A program made the translations under genes and the position numbers. The notes under the pieces are model-generated. The model did not search any database and had not been told where the DNA came from. It saw nothing but the letters and a program-made list of their open reading frames with translations. 55,008 bases of DNA from Candidatus Peregrinibacteria bacterium (lineage in GTDB: Bacteria > Patescibacteriota > Gracilibacteria > UM-FILTER-43-11): assembly GCA_003154375.1 (NCBI GenBank), contig PMDG01000084.1, forward strand, positions 21,384 through 76,391, given 5' to 3'. This document shows positions 3 to 53,605 of this stretch, one piece after another (position 1 is the stretch's first letter; every line of letters starts with the position of its first letter).

Positions 3-1055
3 AAATCCACCGCGGTCACCGTGACCGCCTTCCATGCCGACCAGAAGACGGTCAAGGCGCTTTCCGTCGGAGTCAATGCCGTGAACCAAGCCAGCGATCT
101 GGATGCCGCCAAAAAGGCGATCTCAGACCTGAAAGCAGCCGTAGCGGACGCTCGTAAATTCGTCGACCTTAACGGCGTGGATTTCAATTATGTGGATCTC
201 CAGACCGCGGTTTCCAAGATCGAGACCCAGGTGGATGCCTTGGACAAGGCCTACTCCACTGCCACTTCGTTTGTTTCCAGAGATTATTTCGATACTCTGA
301 AGAAGCTCGGTTTCGGCGATCTGGGACTTGAGATCGGAGGTTTGCTTCGCGATCCAGTGGTCATCGGAAGCACCAACCAGCTTTCCCAGTCCCTCCTCAA
401 CGATGTGCAGGTCGGCAGCTTTGAGCTTTTGCCCGCCACGCCCTTGGAAGACCAGAAACTGTACGATGTGATCGCCACCGCGACCTTGGCCTCGACAACG
501 GTTTCCTCGAGCCCCATCCAGTTTGGCATCAACACGGGTTTCACGGTCAGCAAACCGATCCCGAGAACTCTTGGTGGCAAGCTGATCCCAGCCGGACAAC
601 TTTCTTTTGGCGGCGTATTGATTGATATTGCCCATGCTCAGGATAACTCGACCCAACAGCCCCAGATCGAAATCGACCAGGCTCGCCCCATCATTACGGG
701 TGACACTGAATTTGGATCCCAGGTTTTCGCCATCTGGAACAGCGTGGTCCTTTCTTCGTCCGTCATTTCGGACAGCGAGCAGGGCGCCTTCGAGATCCAG
801 GCCCCCAAAGATCTCGAGACCAATGTCGCCCACCGCGTCACTTTGTACGCAGTCAAGACCGACAAAAACAAAACCCTCCGCTCCGAGAGCGTGGATATCT
901 ATTTCCGCGTCAAATCGCAGGGTGGAAACGTCTGGCCTATCGCGTTGGGGATTATCAGCCTTTTCGTCCTTGCCGGTGGCGCCTATTACCTCATCCGCCG
1001 CATGCGGGACACCCGAAGCGTCATCCGATATCTAAGGACTTCCAGCCGCAAATAA
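3..1055 (+). CDS. C-terminal part of a membrane-anchored extracellular protein (partial at left edge)
   Basis: The reading frame is open from the window edge, so the true start lies to the left; the GTG at 21 is internal. The visible ~350 residues hold a mainly helical stretch (about 20-120) and a segment containing LPATPLEDQKLYDVIA. An Ig-like beta-sandwich follows at about 225-300 (PIITGDTEFGSQVFAIWNS to SVDIYFRVK). A single C-terminal membrane helix comes next (VWPIALGIISLFVLAGG), then an Arg-rich cytoplasmic tail (RRMRDTRS), giving an outside-out topology. It ends TAA, 83 bases before the next gene on the same strand, which fits an operon of surface proteins. The specific function is unknown; a cell-envelope anchor or sensor is inferred from topology and neighbours only. 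Confidence 0.75.
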   Translation, partial: KSTAVTVTAFHADQKTVKALSVGVNAVNQASDLDAAKKAISDLKAAVADARKFVDLNGVDFNYVDLQTAVSKIETQVDALDKAYSTATSFVSRDYFDTLKKLGFGDLGLEIGGLLRDPVVIGSTNQLSQSLLNDVQVGSFELLPATPLEDQKLYDVIATATLASTTVSSSPIQFGINTGFTVSKPIPRTLGGKLIPAGQLSFGGVLIDIAHAQDNSTQQPQIEIDQARPIITGDTEFGSQVFAIWNSVVLSSSVISDSEQGAFEIQAPKDLETNVAHRVTLYAVKTDKNKTLRSESVDIYFRVKSQGGNVWPIALGIISLFVLAGGAYYLIRRMRDTRSVIRYLRTSSRK

Positions 1056-1138: not shown

Positions 1139-4100
1139 ATGAACAAAACGAACCGGAAAACACCTATGGCCAATCCTAACCCAAAAACCAAGATCAAGCG
1201 ACTTGTGAGTCTGGTCTTGCTTGCGCAGATCATTGCCATTTCTGGCTCTTCATCCGTATCCGCGAGTTTTTCGTTTTTCGGTCGGTCCGCCGCTCCGGAC
1301 ACCTATGCCGCAGAACAAGGTTTGACGGTTTCCCAAAGCATCTCGCTCACCGATTCGAATGAATTCCTCCGATACCTGAAGCGTTTGGACACCGATTCCG
1401 GCCGTGTGGCGTTCGGCAAGTCCCTGCAAGACATCCAAACCGAGAAGGCGAATTTGCAACGGATCCATGACAACCTTGTCTTTTTGGTGACCCAGACCAC
1501 CTTATCCCGTCTCAACGCCCAACGCCTGGAGGCCGAAAGCACCTCCGAGCCCCTTCTCCCAGCAGCCCCTCTTGAAAATCCATCGATTTCCGATCTCGTT
1601 CTGAGGATCCAAGGCGAGTTGCGCATCGATGCCCTGCTGAATCACAAGATCGAACTCAGCCAAGCCTTGGACAAGCTTCTGGAATCCAATTCTGCCCTTT
1701 CGAACCTGTCTGTCTTTGAGTCCCTTTCCATCGATGAACAGGAGACTCTCGGCTTGCTCGAAAAGAACGCCCAAGGCTCCAATTTACCCCTTTTATCCCG
1801 TTTACGATTCGATGCCTCAATGACTGATTTTTGGCTTTATTATGCCACCAAAGGCTCTTCGCTTTTGGCTGACGCAAAAGCCAATGCGGCCCAAGATGTT
1901 AGTTTTTTGGATTCGAAAGCAACCCGTGAGCAATCGGTTTTGGATCTGATCCAGACCCTTTATCCCACGGAAGCGGATCAAAAAGCGCAGATCCTCTCCG
2001 ACGAGGCGCTCGATCTTTTCAGGATTTATGAGAAAGAAAGTGTGCCCGAGGTTGTCTCAAGGCTTGAGAATGCCGTGACTGCCTTTGACCAGATCGTTTC
2101 CGACCTTAACTCCACTTTTTCATTTGACGCCTTGGATGATTTTCCAAGCCGTGCGCGGGTCCTGAGGGAAATCCTTGAAACCCTGAAGACGGATCCCATA
2201 CCCACGGTCCAATTCGAAGCCCAATCCCAGGAATACCTGGCCCTCCCTGTTCCGATGTCGGGTGCGGATCTCTCCAGTGACGATTTCATGCTCCGACAAT
2301 GGGAAGTTTTGAACGATTTCGAAAAATTGCTTCTCATGGGCAAGACCCCCAATCACAACGAAGGCATTGAACAAGAGAGGTCTGCCTCTATTTTGGTCGA
2401 GAATGAGGAGCGCGTGCTCAAGCGTGAGGTTTCCGCCATTCCTCCCGCGCCAGTGATTTTGCCTCCAGCTGAAACATCTCCCTCTGTGACCCCCGAGACC
2501 CAGACACCGACCGAGGAAACTCCAGCTACGACCCCAGAGGCTCAGCCTGTGGTCTCTCCTTCTGCACCCACCGAGATTCAGCCCGAGGCTGCCCCAGCCG
2601 TGACCCTAACTCCGGCGCCTGAGGCACCCGCACCCGAGGCTCCAATCCAACCTATTCCAAACTCGGAAACCGTCGCCCCCTCATCTGCAAATGCGGTCCC
2701 TGTCGAAGTGCCTGTTGCCCCTTTGGCCCCCCAAGGCAATTTAATAAAAGATGTGAGTGACCAGGTTCCTGTTTTGGGTCCCGTGATGAAGATTTTGGAC
2801 GTTGTCACCAACCCCGCCCAAACGTTGCTAGCCACGTTGACATCCGCCGGAACCCCATCGACTCCCACGCCCTCTGAGGAACCTTTGAAGGCTGCGGCTC
2901 CGACCGAAGTTTCCCCGACCGAAACTGTCCACCCTGCTACAGAGGCTCCCACGACCGAGGTCCCAGCGACTGAGATTCCTGCTGTAATTGAACCGACTGC
3001 TCCCGTTCCCGAAACACCAGTGACCGAAATCCCTGCGATAGCGGCTCCAACGACAGAAATCCCTGTCGAAACGGCACCCACAACCGAAACCCCAGCCACA
3101 GAAATACCAGCGGTAGAGGTCCCGGCCACCCCGACTCCCGTTCCCGAAATCCTCGCACCAGTCACGGAAGCTCCAGCGACCGAAGTACCCGCAGTCGAGA
3201 CCCCCGCCGTAGTTCAACCGGTTGTTCCCGCTCCCGAAACCCCTGCCCCCGTTCAAAACCTTCCTTCCTTGCAAGAGGTTTCCCAGGGAATCCAGGATTT
3301 TTTCTCCGATGCCTTGGCCGTCAGTTCGGCAATCGCTCAGGATGCCGGGATCAATACCGTGAACCAAGCCTTGGAGGCCAATGCCAAAACCGAAAGCCTG
3401 GCAATGCGTATCAAAGGTTTACTAGACCAAGTCGACGCGCTTAAGGTCAAACCCTCCGATTTCAAGAAAATTTTAGACAGCTTCTCGCTTAGCACCGATC
3501 AGTTGGACGAGCTCACCAGTTTCCTGAACCAGACAACCTTGAAGTTGGGCCTTGCAGACAAAACCGAGGCGTTCAACGGCAAAAACGGCGTTCTCCGTTT
3601 CGGCACGGACATTTGTCCGGATTTGGCCAAGGCCAAAGTTTTGACTCCCGAAAACGAAAAAGAGGGATTTTTCGACCTGAGTTCCAGCCGACAAAACGAC
3701 CTTCTCCTGAAAGAGAAGGGAAAGGAATCGGATCCCGATTATTTGCGTCTGAAAACGCTTCGGAAGCTGGATGCGGATTTTTGTTTTTCCGTTTCCGATG
3801 ACATCTCCACGAAAAACCTGATCGGCCGTGCCGATTACGCCAGACAGTCCAGGGATTCCGTTTCGATCGACGACAAGGACATTGGCCTCCGTTTTGAAAA
3901 CGATCCCTCGCGTTCCCTAACCCTTTCTTTGGGACAAGGTGAGTCCGCCCATTCGGTGGTTTTAAGCCACAGCTCCTCCAATGAGGAACCCGCGGTCGCG
4001 CCCGTGGCCCAGAAAGCGGATGACAAGCTGGTCGATGTTTCCGTTGCGCCCGTGGCATCCACAGACAATCCGTTGGCTTATTCCCTTTCCACGCTTGAAA

Positions 4101-49322: not shown

Positions 49323-52300
49323 CTACCGTTTCACCTTCACCGTGATGCCATCCAATGTTCCGAACTGGTCGGGTTCGAGGATATCAAGCTCGATAGAGGT
49401 GGCGAGGGTCTCGGATTTAATGGTATCGCCGAATTTGGCCAACAACTCGGGTTTCACGCCAATCACCGCGATTTTGATTCGGTCGCTCACATGGTACTTG
49501 GCGGCCTTGCGGAGATCCTGGATTTGGCGGACGACATCGCGCGCAACGCCTTCCATCTCCAACTCCGGCGTGATGACCGTATCCAATGCCACAAGGATAC
49601 CCTCGGCGGTCTCGATGCTGGCCCCTTCCTTGCCTTGGTAACCGATTTCGATCTCTTGCGGGGTCAGTTCATGCCCTAGCACCTTGAGGTTTCCGTTGGC
49701 CAGTTTCTCGAAATGGCCGGCTTTTGCCTCTTGGATGATGGATTGGACCTCTTTGCCGAACTTGGGCCCCAAAAGCTTGGCGTTGGGCTTGGCGATCACG
49801 GTGGCGACCTCTTTGGCGTCGCGGATCAGCTCAACCTCTTTCACATTCAATTCCTCCATGATGATTCCAGACTGGGCCTTCAGGAGTTCTGGGTTGAATT
49901 GGCCACCGATGGCCACTTGAATTTTTTGAAGTGGCTGGCGGACCTTGAGTTTCAGCTTGCCACGGGCGGCCAGGCCGAGCGAAACCACGGTTTTCGCCAG
50001 GAACATCTCCTCCTGCAATTGCGCGTCGCCCTCGGTCTTGGCGGGTTTCGGGTAGGCGGTCAAATGGACCGACTCTTCGCCGGTCAGGTTCCGGTAGATC
50101 TCCTCGCTCACGAAAGGCATGAATGGAGCAATGACTTGGCACAGATTCGTGAGGACATGGAATAGCGTGGCGTAGGCCATCTTCTTGTCCCCATCGTCCT
50201 CTGTTTTCCAGAAGCGTCGGCGGGAGCGGCGGATGTACCAATTAGTGAGGTCGTCCACGAATTTGTAGATCGCGTTGCTTGCCTTTTGGAGGTCATAAGC
50301 CTCCATGTCCTCGATTTGTTGTACAATTAATTTGTTCAACTCGAGCAAGATCCAGCGATCGAGCTTGTTCTCGGATTTCACCTTCTTTTTGCTCGGTTTC
50401 CATTGGTCGATCGAGGAATACGTGACAAAGAAGCTGTAGGCATTCCAAATAGGCAAAATCATATTCCGGACCACGTCGGACACGCCCTTTTCCGAGAAGC
50501 GCAGGTCGTCGGCCTTCACCACGGGCGAGTTCATCAGATAGAAGCGCAGTGCATCGGCGCCATGGGCTTTGAGGACCTCGTTCGGATCGGGGTAGTTTTT
50601 GAGCTTTTTGGCCATTTTCTGGCCATCCTCAGCCAGCACGATGCCGTTCACGATCACGTTTTTGAAAGCGGCTTTGCCGAACAGGGCGTTCGCCAATACG
50701 TGGAGCGTGTAGAACCAACCACGGGTCTGGTCCACCCCCTCGGCGATGAACTCGGCCGGGAAATTGTTCTCGAATTTTTCCTTATTCTCGAATGGGTAGT
50801 GGAGCTGGGCGTAGGGCATGGAGCCGCTCTCGAACCAGCAGTCCAACACCTCGGGCACGCGTTTCATATTCCCTCCGCAGGGGCAGGGAATCGCGATCTC
50901 GTCCACGAAATGCTTATGAAGGTCGGGCACCTTTTTACCGCTAGCCTGTTCTAGCTCGGCGATGCTTCCGAAAACCTTGAGTTCATCGCATTTCTCGCAA
51001 CGCCAGATGGGGAGCGGTGCGCCCCAGTAGCGGTTGCGGGAGATGGCCCAGTCGCGTGCGCCCTCAAGCCATTTGCCGAAACGGCCGTCCTTGAGGTGCT
51101 CGGGTACCCAGCCGATCTTCTGGTTCGTTTTGACCAGCTTCGACTTCAGGCTCTCCACATCCACGAACCACGTGGAGATGGGGCGGTAGATGAGGGGCGT
51201 ATCGCACCTCCAGCAGAAGGGGTAACTGTGATTGATGGTCTCGTGGCGGACGATCTTTTTTTCGGCCTTCAGTTTTTCCAGGATCAAGGGGTTGGACTCG
51301 AACACGTTCTTGCCCTCGTATTCCTTCACCTCGGCGTTGAACTTGCCCTCGGCATCGAGCGGATACACCGCCTCGACTTTCATCGCCTTCAGCACGTTCA
51401 TGTCGTCCTCGCCGAACGGGGCAATGTGGACGAGACCCGTGCCGTCTTCCAGGCTGACGAAATCACCCGAAGTTACGGTGAAAACCAGTTTCTCCTTCTT
51501 TTCCGCATAATAGGGGAGCAGGGGCTTGTATTTTTTGCCGACCAGTTTTTCACCCAAAAATTCCTCGAGCACCTTGTAGTCGGCTGGATTCTTGTAGTAA
51601 TGGGGGATTCGGTCAAGCGCGAGGATGTATTTCTCGCCACTCACATCCTGGATCTTGGCGTAGGTCAAATCCTTGCCCACGGCCACAGCCAGATTGCTCG
51701 GGAGCGTCCACGGAGTGGTCGTCCACGAGAGCAGATAGGTTCCAGGCTCGTCCACCAACTCGAACTTGATGGTCAGCGCGGGATCCTGCTTGTCCTTGTA
51801 GCCCTGGTTCGTCTCGAAGTTCGAAAGGGGCGTGGCGCACCGGATGCAATAGGGGACGATCTTGTGGCCCTCGTAGATCAGGTTCTTGTCCCACAGGCTC
51901 CTAAACACCCACCAGATGGACTCCATATACTCGGGATTCATGGTCTTGTAATCGTGTTCCATGTCGACCCAGCGGCCCATGCGGTTCACGGTTGCCTTCC
52001 ACTCATTCGCGTAGCGCAAGACCACGGCCCGGCAAGCCTCGTTGAACTTGGCGATGCCGAATTGCTCAATGTCGGTCTTGCTTTTGAGCCCCAGCTCCTT
52101 TTCGACAATGTTTTCGACTGGCAGCCCGTGGCAATCCCAACCCCATTTGCGTTCGATCTTGTAACCGCGCATGGCCCAGAAACGCGGAACCACGTCTTTT
52201 AGGGTTCCAGCCAACAAGTGGCCGTAGTGGGGGAGTCCCGTGGCGAACGGAGGCCCGTCGTAGAAGGAATACTCCTTCTTTCCGCGCACGGATTTCTCGA

Positions 52301-52382
52301 AGGTCTTGTTCTCTTTCCAATAGGCGAGGATATCCTCTTCCATTTGGGGGAAAGATTGCTTGGGATTGACCGGATTAAACAT
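49323..52382 (-). CDS. ileS: Isoleucyl-tRNA synthetase, eukaryote-like (IleS2) type
   Basis: 1019 residues. Charges tRNA-Ile with isoleucine in the cytoplasm, using ATP and releasing pyrophosphate. The HIGH motif is HYGH in PPFATGLPHYGHLLAGTLKD, a sequence typical of the IleS2 group rather than IleS1. WGWDCHGLPVE follows. The CP1 editing domain shows SWTTTPWTLPSNLAVAVG. The KMSKS loop reads GQKMAKKLKNYPDP, with Ala for the Ser. The anticodon-binding domain begins about residue 650 (NMILPIWNAYSFF) and is followed by a C-terminal extension. Preceded by 29 bp and the pyrophosphatase-like gene, and by a T-box-like leader, so both are probably induced when tRNA-Ile is uncharged. No Shine-Dalgarno. 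Confidence 0.95.
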   Translation of the reverse strand: MFNPVNPKQSFPQMEEDILAYWKENKTFEKSVRGKKEYSFYDGPPFATGLPHYGHLLAGTLKDVVPRFWAMRGYKIERKWGWDCHGLPVENIVEKELGLKSKTDIEQFGIAKFNEACRAVVLRYANEWKATVNRMGRWVDMEHDYKTMNPEYMESIWWVFRSLWDKNLIYEGHKIVPYCIRCATPLSNFETNQGYKDKQDPALTIKFELVDEPGTYLLSWTTTPWTLPSNLAVAVGKDLTYAKIQDVSGEKYILALDRIPHYYKNPADYKVLEEFLGEKLVGKKYKPLLPYYAEKKEKLVFTVTSGDFVSLEDGTGLVHIAPFGEDDMNVLKAMKVEAVYPLDAEGKFNAEVKEYEGKNVFESNPLILEKLKAEKKIVRHETINHSYPFCWRCDTPLIYRPISTWFVDVESLKSKLVKTNQKIGWVPEHLKDGRFGKWLEGARDWAISRNRYWGAPLPIWRCEKCDELKVFGSIAELEQASGKKVPDLHKHFVDEIAIPCPCGGNMKRVPEVLDCWFESGSMPYAQLHYPFENKEKFENNFPAEFIAEGVDQTRGWFYTLHVLANALFGKAAFKNVIVNGIVLAEDGQKMAKKLKNYPDPNEVLKAHGADALRFYLMNSPVVKADDLRFSEKGVSDVVRNMILPIWNAYSFFVTYSSIDQWKPSKKKVKSENKLDRWILLELNKLIVQQIEDMEAYDLQKASNAIYKFVDDLTNWYIRRSRRRFWKTEDDGDKKMAYATLFHVLTNLCQVIAPFMPFVSEEIYRNLTGEESVHLTAYPKPAKTEGDAQLQEEMFLAKTVVSLGLAARGKLKLKVRQPLQKIQVAIGGQFNPELLKAQSGIIMEELNVKEVELIRDAKEVATVIAKPNAKLLGPKFGKEVQSIIQEAKAGHFEKLANGNLKVLGHELTPQEIEIGYQGKEGASIETAEGILVALDTVITPELEMEGVARDVVRQIQDLRKAAKYHVSDRIKIAVIGVKPELLAKFGDTIKSETLATSIELDILEPDQFGTLDGITVKVKR

Positions 52383-52411: not shown

Positions 52412-52765
52412 TTATGAGTATTTTTCTCTGATAATGATTGATTTAAAGAATTTTTCTTGGAAATCGGTTAATGATTTTATCTGTTCGTCCGTGTAGGATG
52501 TTCCGTCTGGAACCACGACCAGCTTATCATCATTGTCATTGTTCCGATGGATGATGGCGATGCATCGGCCCTCAAGGGTTTCCAATGGTCCGAAGTCACC
52601 GAGGACATAGGCGTCCAACTCTTCCCCGTCGGGGGCAAAAACCCCTTCGACGTATCCGTAATTCTGGGAGTAGACCAGATCCTTGAATTTAGGATGCCGA
52701 GATCCTATTGGACGATCGACCATAACCGTAACGATTTTGCCGAGGAAAGGGGTCGAATAGTCCAT
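52412..52765 (-). CDS. Small inorganic pyrophosphatase-like protein
   Basis: 117 residues. Matches the short family annotated as inorganic pyrophosphatase: GKIVTVMVDRPIGSRHP, QNYGYVEGVFAPDGEELDAY, IIHRNNDNDDKLVVVPDG and FQEKFFKSIIIR. The signature D-x-D-P-x-D of classical family I enzymes reads DGEELD, so one Asp is Glu and the Pro is absent, and the protein is shorter than the classical ~175 residues. Activity on pyrophosphate is therefore uncertain. Placed first in a leftward unit with ileS, 29 bp apart, it could remove pyrophosphate made by aminoacylation. An AGGA at 52777-52780 (minus strand), ten bases before the ATG, may be a Shine-Dalgarno. Confidence 0.8.
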   Translation of the reverse strand: MDYSTPFLGKIVTVMVDRPIGSRHPKFKDLVYSQNYGYVEGVFAPDGEELDAYVLGDFGPLETLEGRCIAIIHRNNDNDDKLVVVPDGTSYTDEQIKSLTDFQEKFFKSIIIREKYS

Positions 52766-52786
52766 GGGTTTCGATTCCTACGAACT

Positions 52787-52815
52787 AAAAAACAGACATT
52801 CAACAAGATTGAACG
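52787..52815 (-). terminator. Leader terminator candidate upstream of the pyrophosphatase-ileS unit
   Basis: On the minus strand, CGTTCAA (52815-52809) pairs with TTGAATG (52803-52797) around loop TCTTG. Four bases later comes T6 (52792-52787). The stem begins next to the 3' strand of the T-box antiterminator, so the two could compete. Confidence 0.55.
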
Positions 52816-52817
52816 CT

Positions 52818-52965
52818 TAGGGTCCCAAAGCACATCGGGACAGGTACCACCTAGGCTTATGCTTGATTTCAATTGATTACGGAGATGCTCTCCGGGTCGT
52901 TCTACTTATCTTTCGACTTTCTTCGACCAGCTTATCCCTTGATCGGGGACTCGGACGCTTTTACA
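52818..52965 (-). promoter_or_regulatory. T-box riboswitch candidate (tRNA-Ile sensing)
   Basis: Minus-strand leader. The T-box core AGGTGGTACC (52852-52843) forms the textbook antiterminator: helix A1 TAGG (52853-52850) with CCTA (52821-52818), bulge TGGTACCT, helix A2 GTCCC (52841-52837) with GGGAC (52826-52822). TGGT would pair with the ACCA end of a tRNA with A73, as in tRNA-Ile. Upstream, hairpin TCCC-CGATCAA-GGGA (52949-52935) exposes the Ile codon ATC followed by A. A GGTCG/CGACC stem (52928-52895) contains an AGTAGAA S-turn-like loop. A perfect hairpin CGGAGA-GCA-TCTCCG (52894-52880) follows. The short layout resembles the compact ileS T-boxes of Actinobacteria. Downstream terminator and possible Shine-Dalgarno leave the mechanism open. 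Confidence 0.75.
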
Positions 52966-52971
52966 GAGGAA

Positions 52972-53000
52972 ATCATAGTTTGACTCTCTCTTCGGGTCAA
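52972..53000 (-). promoter_or_regulatory. Near-consensus promoter for the T-box leader
   Basis: Minus strand: TTGACC (53000-52995), 17-bp spacer, TATGAT (52977-52972). Predicted start near 52965, giving a leader of about 200 nt before the ATG at 52765. It starts right after the dCMP deaminase stop codon. Confidence 0.85.
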
Positions 53001-53005
53001 GGCGC

Positions 53006-53605
53006 TTATTTTGCGCCAGCGATTTTTTCCTTCAGCGCGGGCGAAATTGTGACTGAGGCCTTTTTCATGGAAGCCTCGAGATCTTTGTAATCGGTGCAGT
53101 ATTGTTCCTTGTCGTCGATGATATCGTTCTCTTGCCATTCCTTCACCCAGTCTGCCACATGGAAAATTTTGAAGCCACCCTCCTTGAGCGAGCTGATAAC
53201 GCGTTTAAGACCCGCGTTGATGATCATTTTTTTGCAGATGTAGCAGGGGAAGGCATCGAGCAATACGTCCGTGCCGTGCCGTTTGCCGTACAGGTAGATG
53301 TCGCCATCCAGCAAACTTACTCCTGAACGGGCCGCGTTGATGATGGCATTCTGCTCCGCGTGGACCGAACGGCAAATCTCGTAGCGATGGCCCGAGGGAA
53401 TACCCAGCTTTCGGCGCAGGCAGTATTCGTGCTCCAGCGAGCTCTTGGTGCCGCGCGGAGAGCCATTGTAGCCGGTGGAAACCACTTGGTCATTTCGAAT
53501 AATGACCGCCCCGATCTCGGAGCTGAGGCAGGTGCCACGCCGGCTGACTGCCTTGGCGAGATCCAGATAGTATTGATCTTTTGAGGGGCGAGTGTTGTTT
53601 TCCAT
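53006..53605 (-). CDS. dCMP deaminase (ComEB-like)
   Basis: 199 residues. Converts dCMP to dUMP, feeding thymidylate synthesis in the cytoplasm. Cytidine-deaminase fold with zinc motif HAEQNAI (His and catalytic Glu near residue 86) and PCYICKKMI (two Cys, near 120). The family-typical opening is QYYLDLAKAVSRRGTCLSSEIGA with VVSTGYNGSPRG. Slightly longer than the ~150-residue core, with a charged C-terminal tail (KEKIAGAK). It follows the P-loop kinase gene by 35 bp on the same strand, which suggests a shared nucleotide-metabolism unit. A new promoter starts directly after its stop codon. Confidence 0.92.
   Translation of the reverse strand: MENNTRPSKDQYYLDLAKAVSRRGTCLSSEIGAVIIRNDQVVSTGYNGSPRGTKSSLEHEYCLRRKLGIPSGHRYEICRSVHAEQNAIINAARSGVSLLDGDIYLYGKRHGTDVLLDAFPCYICKKMIINAGLKRVISSLKEGGFKIFHVADWVKEWQENDIIDDKEQYCTDYKDLEASMKKASVTISPALKEKIAGAK

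Follow-up and report, generated by a model that had tools for sequence, protein, structure and literature searches.

Most reported T-box riboswitches come from Firmicutes and Actinobacteria, and Chloroflexi, Deinococcus, and Proteobacteria have contributed a few cases (PMC2494555, 2008). The class I, or transcriptional, T-boxes, covered by the Rfam family RF00230 and exemplified by Bacillus subtilis tyrS and glyQS, combine a promoter-leader-gene order with an antiterminator carrying the UGGNACC bulge and a terminator that shares the A1 strand. Rapid capture of the tRNA by transcriptional T-boxes is currently held to depend, as a rule, on a long Stem I that carries an elbow-binding motif (PMC7583486). 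The class II, or translational, T-boxes found before ileS in Actinobacteria, such as Nocardia farcinica and Mycobacterium tuberculosis, are Ile-specific, have an ultrashort Stem I with an apical specifier and a K-turn-like base, an S-turn in Stem II and a IIA/B element, and act through Shine-Dalgarno sequestration (PMC7583486, PMC10651847). For T-boxes with a short Stem I, the TBDB authors worked with a separate model (PMC7778990).

Here, we analyzed the window, i.e., the whole stretch of 55,008 nucleotides, and concluded with high confidence that a leader on its minus strand is a tRNA-Ile-specific T-box riboswitch controlling a pyrophosphatase-ileS operon by transcription attenuation. That it binds tRNA, that it senses charging, and which way it switches are inferred. 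All the evidence is computational, and there are no binding or expression data. The features of the locus are listed in Table 1. The nearest named ileS is 72% identical and comes from a 'Patescibacteria group bacterium', and this, along with the kinship labels of the relatives, bears out the Patescibacteria host assumed in an earlier note on this DNA. Moreover, in several families of the class, the open reading frames indicate that UGA is read as a residue in these genes, suggesting that they belong to Gracilibacteria.

Table 1. Position of the leader elements and neighboring genes in the window.
Feature	Position	Strand	Remarks
dCMP-deaminase-like gene	53006-53605		other flank of the leader
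sigma-70-like promoter	52972..53000	-	TTGACC-17 bp-TATGAT, about 10 bases 5' of Stem I
whole T-box aptamer and antiterminator	52815..52961	-	extent of the match to model R2
ultrashort Stem I	52929..52959	-	about 31 bases, specifier loop at the apex
parts of Stem I			base AGC/GCU, K-turn-like internal loop GUCCGA/AA, 5-bp stem GUCCC/GGGAU, apical loop CGAUCAA
specifier codon AUC	52941..52943	-	reads the GAU anticodon of tRNA-Ile; AUCA kept in the window's family
Stem II with GAA/AGUA S-turn	52895..52928	-	GGUCG-AAGAAA-..-AAGUAGAA-CGACC
Stem IIA hairpin (IIA/B element)	52880..52894	-	CGGAG/CUCCG
A-rich (purine-rich) linker in the place of Stem III	52857..52879	-	conserved AAAUYAAG
antiterminator	52815..52856	-	GCCUAGG-UGGUACC-U-GUCCC..GGGAC-CCUAAGC; A1 GCCUAGG/CCUAAGC, A2 GUCCC/GGGAC
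T-box bulge UGGUACC	52843..52849	-	UGGU complementary to ACCA of tRNA-Ile (A73)
intrinsic terminator	52787..52816	-	GCGUUCAAU-CUU-GUUGAAUGU then CUGUUUUUU; hairpin 52816-52796
inorganic pyrophosphatase gene	52412..52765	-	Pfam PF00719; first in the controlled operon
ileS, isoleucyl-tRNA synthetase gene	49323..52382	-	Pfam PF00133, orthologues; second in the controlled operon

Apart from the output, the traits of class II named above recur in the window leader, the IIA/B element being supported through its helix IIA. The likeness to compact actinobacterial ileS T-boxes that had been proposed holds for the tRNA-binding part; it does not extend to the output, which looks transcriptional. Instead of Shine-Dalgarno sequestration, the Patescibacteria leader has an intrinsic terminator, no Stem III helix was seen, the relatives also read AAC/GAC (aspS) and probably GUC (valS), and the host phylum is Patescibacteria. 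This likeness rests on the published architecture, without direct sequence comparison. With class I, the leader has in common the antiterminator bulge, the terminator sharing the A1 strand, and the gene order, and its Stem I base fits the RF00230 consensus layout; the RF00230 alignments of three loci of the class (L009, L019, and L020) share the Stem I base, the S-turn, and the UGGUACC consensus. In contrast to class I, the short Stem I of the window lacks the distal arm that bears the tRNA-elbow-binding motif (IDTM), and there is neither a Stem III helix nor a match to RF00230. The window leader thus carries features of both known classes and fully fits neither definition; it is a variant within a known T-box class, compact in layout and transcriptional in output.

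We then considered the sequence of the window on its own. A promoter with 17-bp spacing, an ATC-bearing hairpin loop, and a stem with an S-turn-like loop had all been reported upstream of the pyrophosphatase-ileS pair, and every element was found in the order claimed. The promoter matches 10 of 12 consensus positions (one found versus 0.2 expected in shuffles), and the S-turn motif of Stem II reads GAAGAA..AGUAGAA, its GAAGAA being invariant within the window's family. The CGGAG/CUCCG hairpin described as the third one is present; it corresponds to Stem IIA of the IIA/B element and not to Stem III. The analysis of column pairs in the leaders revealed neither a helix nor covarying pairs in the linker columns. 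The antiterminator with the TGGTACC bulge folds as proposed (−13.9 kcal/mol), with the correction that its A1 helix contains one C-A mismatch. The terminator was far more stable than shuffled sequences (−7.3 kcal/mol, z −4.2). The fold energy of the whole leader was no better than that of shuffles (z −1.05), and the minimum-energy fold was uninformative. The Rfam check that had been suggested failed to support the claim, with no match in the window at the gathering threshold of release 15 and nothing relevant at E values up to 5; a match to Bp1_684 at the permissive threshold (E 2.9) was dismissed as chance. A comparison with phages gave no DNA match. The energy of the whole leader alone is not unusual; the reality of the T-box was decided by its relatives, in which the elements are conserved and covary.

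The same leader with the UGGUACC bulge was found before ileS orthologues in eight genomes of the family, the window included, and one further locus of this family (L119) carries the bulge variant UGGUAAC. At other loci, the box is located further upstream, before thrC or ridA (L183, L193, L126/L184, and L131/L200), and directly upstream of ileS in L122 there is a decayed T-box, which retains the start of Stem I and the terminator and has lost both Stem II and the UGGUACC bulge. The pyrophosphatase gene was too rare to serve as a handle for finding relatives. Five leaders of the family, with that of the window among them, served to build a covariance model, R1, whose score for the window is therefore circular; this model matched 109 of 353 genomes of the class, and several genomes of the family gave no match. 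The training set of a second model, R2, consisted of 37 leaders from other families, to the exclusion of the window and its own family, and the alignment was guided by the structure of R1, which had included the window. R2 recognized the window leader with 114 bits and an E value of 3.5e-27, as the sole match in its genome, and it matched 114 of 380 genomes across the phylum; the E values of both models are only rough. Outside the phylum, R2 matched only two of 16 genomes: an Anaerolineales genome had two weak matches (best E 1e-4), and a Vibrio genome had a single one at E 0.086. The Anaerolineales locus (L317, Chloroflexota; E 1e-4) has an S-turn, CCCGUUA, and GGUGGUACC, and lies directly before a probable valS.

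When RF00230 was searched in 192 genomes of the same class, its cut-off (93 bits) was reached in none of them, and even a long argG T-box scored only 81 bits. Sub-threshold matches were detected in 25 genomes (best E 3e-18), the weakest of which may be chance, and many of them sit before argG, thrS, ileS, trpS, glyS, or thrC. These T-boxes, e.g., those of argG (L009 and L010), thrS (L012, L013, L018, and L026), trpS (L016), and glyS (L029), follow the same antiterminator logic, and their T-box base fits the expected discriminator, with UGGA before thrS and glyS and UGGC before trpS. They differ from the window leader in the genes they precede and, for the argG pair, in a long canonical Stem I; these two T-boxes lie at 300-573 (+) of L009 and 1501-1790 (-) of L010, and scored 81 and 70.6 bits, respectively. 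Stem III is kept in L019, an ileS T-box from this class that does not belong to the ultrashort group.

The covariation of the helices was assessed in 91 leaders of other families, where 94.9% of the pair cells held standard pairs and 31 of the 33 pairs had changed on both sides. The two-sided changes amounted to 783 cells, versus a shuffle mean of 208, and pairing dropped to about 50% when the partner was slid by one column. Kinship inflates the counts of two-sided changes; the sliding control retains this kinship. Both helices of Stem I (helices 1 and 2) were paired in 98%, with two-sided changes in seven of eight pairs, those of Stem II (3 and 4) in 96-97%, with such changes in every pair, and Stem IIA (5) in 97%, with changes in four of five; helices 6 and 7 of the set were A1 and A2 of the antiterminator. 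Within the IIA/B element, helix IIA was supported, and the pseudoknot pairs showed no covariation signal. Nine family leaders aligned with MAFFT by sequence alone gave a result of the same kind, with 87.2% pairing and 48 two-sided changes versus 15.5. The covariation check asked of the relatives' leaders was passed, with the helices, S-turn, specifier, and TGGTACC bulge conserved and covarying, and the identification as a T-box is supported.

Next, we related the specifier to the T-box base. In the leaders where both could be read, the AUC specifier occurred with UGGU in a ratio of 48:0, and AAC/GAC with UGGC in a ratio of 25:1. This pattern was not built into R1, since this model was trained on Ile boxes only; the sequences are related, so the p-value of the coupling is not that of independent samples. 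Of all column pairs that are not base pairs, the strongest link was that between the central base of the specifier and base four of the T-box; these two do not pair with each other, and both read one tRNA. The cognate tRNA was also found: the genome contains one detected gene for tRNA-Ile(GAT), with A73 and an encoded CCA, and the Ile specificity inferred earlier from TGGT and A73 agrees with it. The same genome has G73 in tRNA-Asn and tRNA-Asp and U73 in tRNA-Thr, and the latter is what UGGA before thrS fits. The window leader fulfills two criteria for a T-box, namely, a specifier that matches both the downstream gene and a genomic tRNA anticodon (AUC, ileS operon, and tRNA-Ile(GAT)), and a UGGN between A1 and A2 complementary to the discriminator base (UGGUACC and A73).

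The output of the switch could lie in transcription or in translation. A terminator-like hairpin with a U-run was found downstream in 84 of 104 leaders, as compared with 12 in reversed sequence, and in 83 of these 84 its 5' arm starts within the 3' strand of A1, which makes the terminator and the antiterminator mutually exclusive. In the window, this overlap comprises only two bases, the last two of A1 being the first two of the hairpin, and the terminator is weaker than in most relatives; the same scan detected no terminator in L121 and L193 and only a very weak one in L124. In addition, a promoter with at least 9 of 12 consensus positions was present within 50 bases before Stem I in 65 of 103 leaders, versus 11.9 expected, mostly 5-15 bases before this stem. 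These terminators and promoters point to transcription attenuation. If the switch were translational, the strand freed in the charged state would mask the pyrophosphatase Shine-Dalgarno sequence, which is how the actinobacterial ileS T-boxes work. The tRNA-binding part does have their layout (PMC7583486), and a UAGG in the leader, close to the start codon, could indeed pair with CCUA in the 3' strand of A1. Nevertheless, control through this pairing was rejected because it was seen only in the window. The U-run hairpins of the relatives also speak against a translational switch, and in several of these relatives (e.g., L122, L123, and L183) the U-run abuts the ATG, with no Shine-Dalgarno sequence. 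We consequently regard a translational output as unlikely.

A decayed T-box, still recognizable and no longer switching in this genome, would be in line with the C-A mismatch in A1, the weaker terminator, and the losses among relatives, where L122 retains a remnant with the terminator and several family genomes have no match. Yet, the promoter, specifier, S-turn, Stem IIA, T-box bulge, and terminator of the window are all intact, and its leader is among the best scores of R2, a model that never saw it, making decay very unlikely. The absence of an Rfam family and the unremarkable fold of the whole leader would also be expected if hairpins followed the promoter merely by chance, or if this were some other leader RNA; this is refuted by the covariation and by the coupling of specifier and T-box base, and chance leaves the gene context unexplained as well, so that we give it practically no credence.

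The mechanism of a T-box attenuating transcription in response to tRNA-Ile can be outlined by analogy. The nascent leader would bind tRNA-Ile through the AUC specifier loop of the very short Stem I, and the S-turn of Stem II would hold the tRNA from the side. When tRNA-Ile is uncharged, its free ACCA end would pair with UGGU of the bulge, stabilizing the antiterminator and letting RNA polymerase read through; with charged tRNA-Ile, the antiterminator would not be stabilized, the downstream hairpin and U-run would form, and transcription would stop. The assignment of read-through to uncharged tRNA is an inference that follows the way T-boxes are known to work (PMC7583486, PMC7778990).

Ultrashort T-boxes were found in front of several genes. 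Those reading AUC lie upstream of ileS operons and ridA, with single cases before ilvA (L229) and thrC (L273), and some of them head gene runs whose later genes were left unfollowed. Threonine synthase and RidA each have a link to the pathway that leads from threonine to isoleucine. At two loci (L183/L127 and L193/L129), an Ile T-box stands at the head of an apparent thrC-ridA-ileS run, and the leader is seemingly common to all three genes. The AAC and GAC boxes are mostly located upstream of aspS, and AAC, an Asn codon, along with UGGC was observed in this position in L203, L214, L216, L220, L226, L230, L234, and others; this is consistent with an AspRS whose substrates include tRNA-Asn and whose control runs through that tRNA. 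Among the phylum-wide R2 matches, five (L297, L300, L302, L303, and L310) have GUC in the specifier loop and precede valS-like genes about 27% identical to IleS, and Val-specific versions of the ultrashort T-box probably exist. In three loci of other classes (L295, L304, and L290), the linker before the antiterminator contains CACCAA, complementary to a UUGGUG just before the downstream U-run; these motifs suggest another type of expression platform, one in which the antiterminator would be enclosed.

Collectively, we consider it likely that Patescibacteria possess a widespread T-box class that joins an ultrashort Stem I without the elbow motif, so far described for translational switches, with transcription attenuation. 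Stem III would often be missing from this class, and the amino acids read would be Ile, Asn/Asp, and probably Val. T-box riboswitches were not found named together with Patescibacteria, CPR, or Gracilibacteria in the literature, which was covered only in part, and an earlier mention is not excluded. Ultrashort T-boxes occur in about 30% of the sampled Patescibacteria genomes, below the Rfam cut-off, in organisms whose gene regulation is little known. One and the same architecture reads Ile in some leaders and Asn in others, which offers ready-made pairs for studies of specificity. Since a Stem I of 31 bases is paired here with a terminator, these leaders are a natural test of the long-Stem-I requirement, and, if the class is as described, transcriptional T-boxes would not need the contact with the tRNA elbow.
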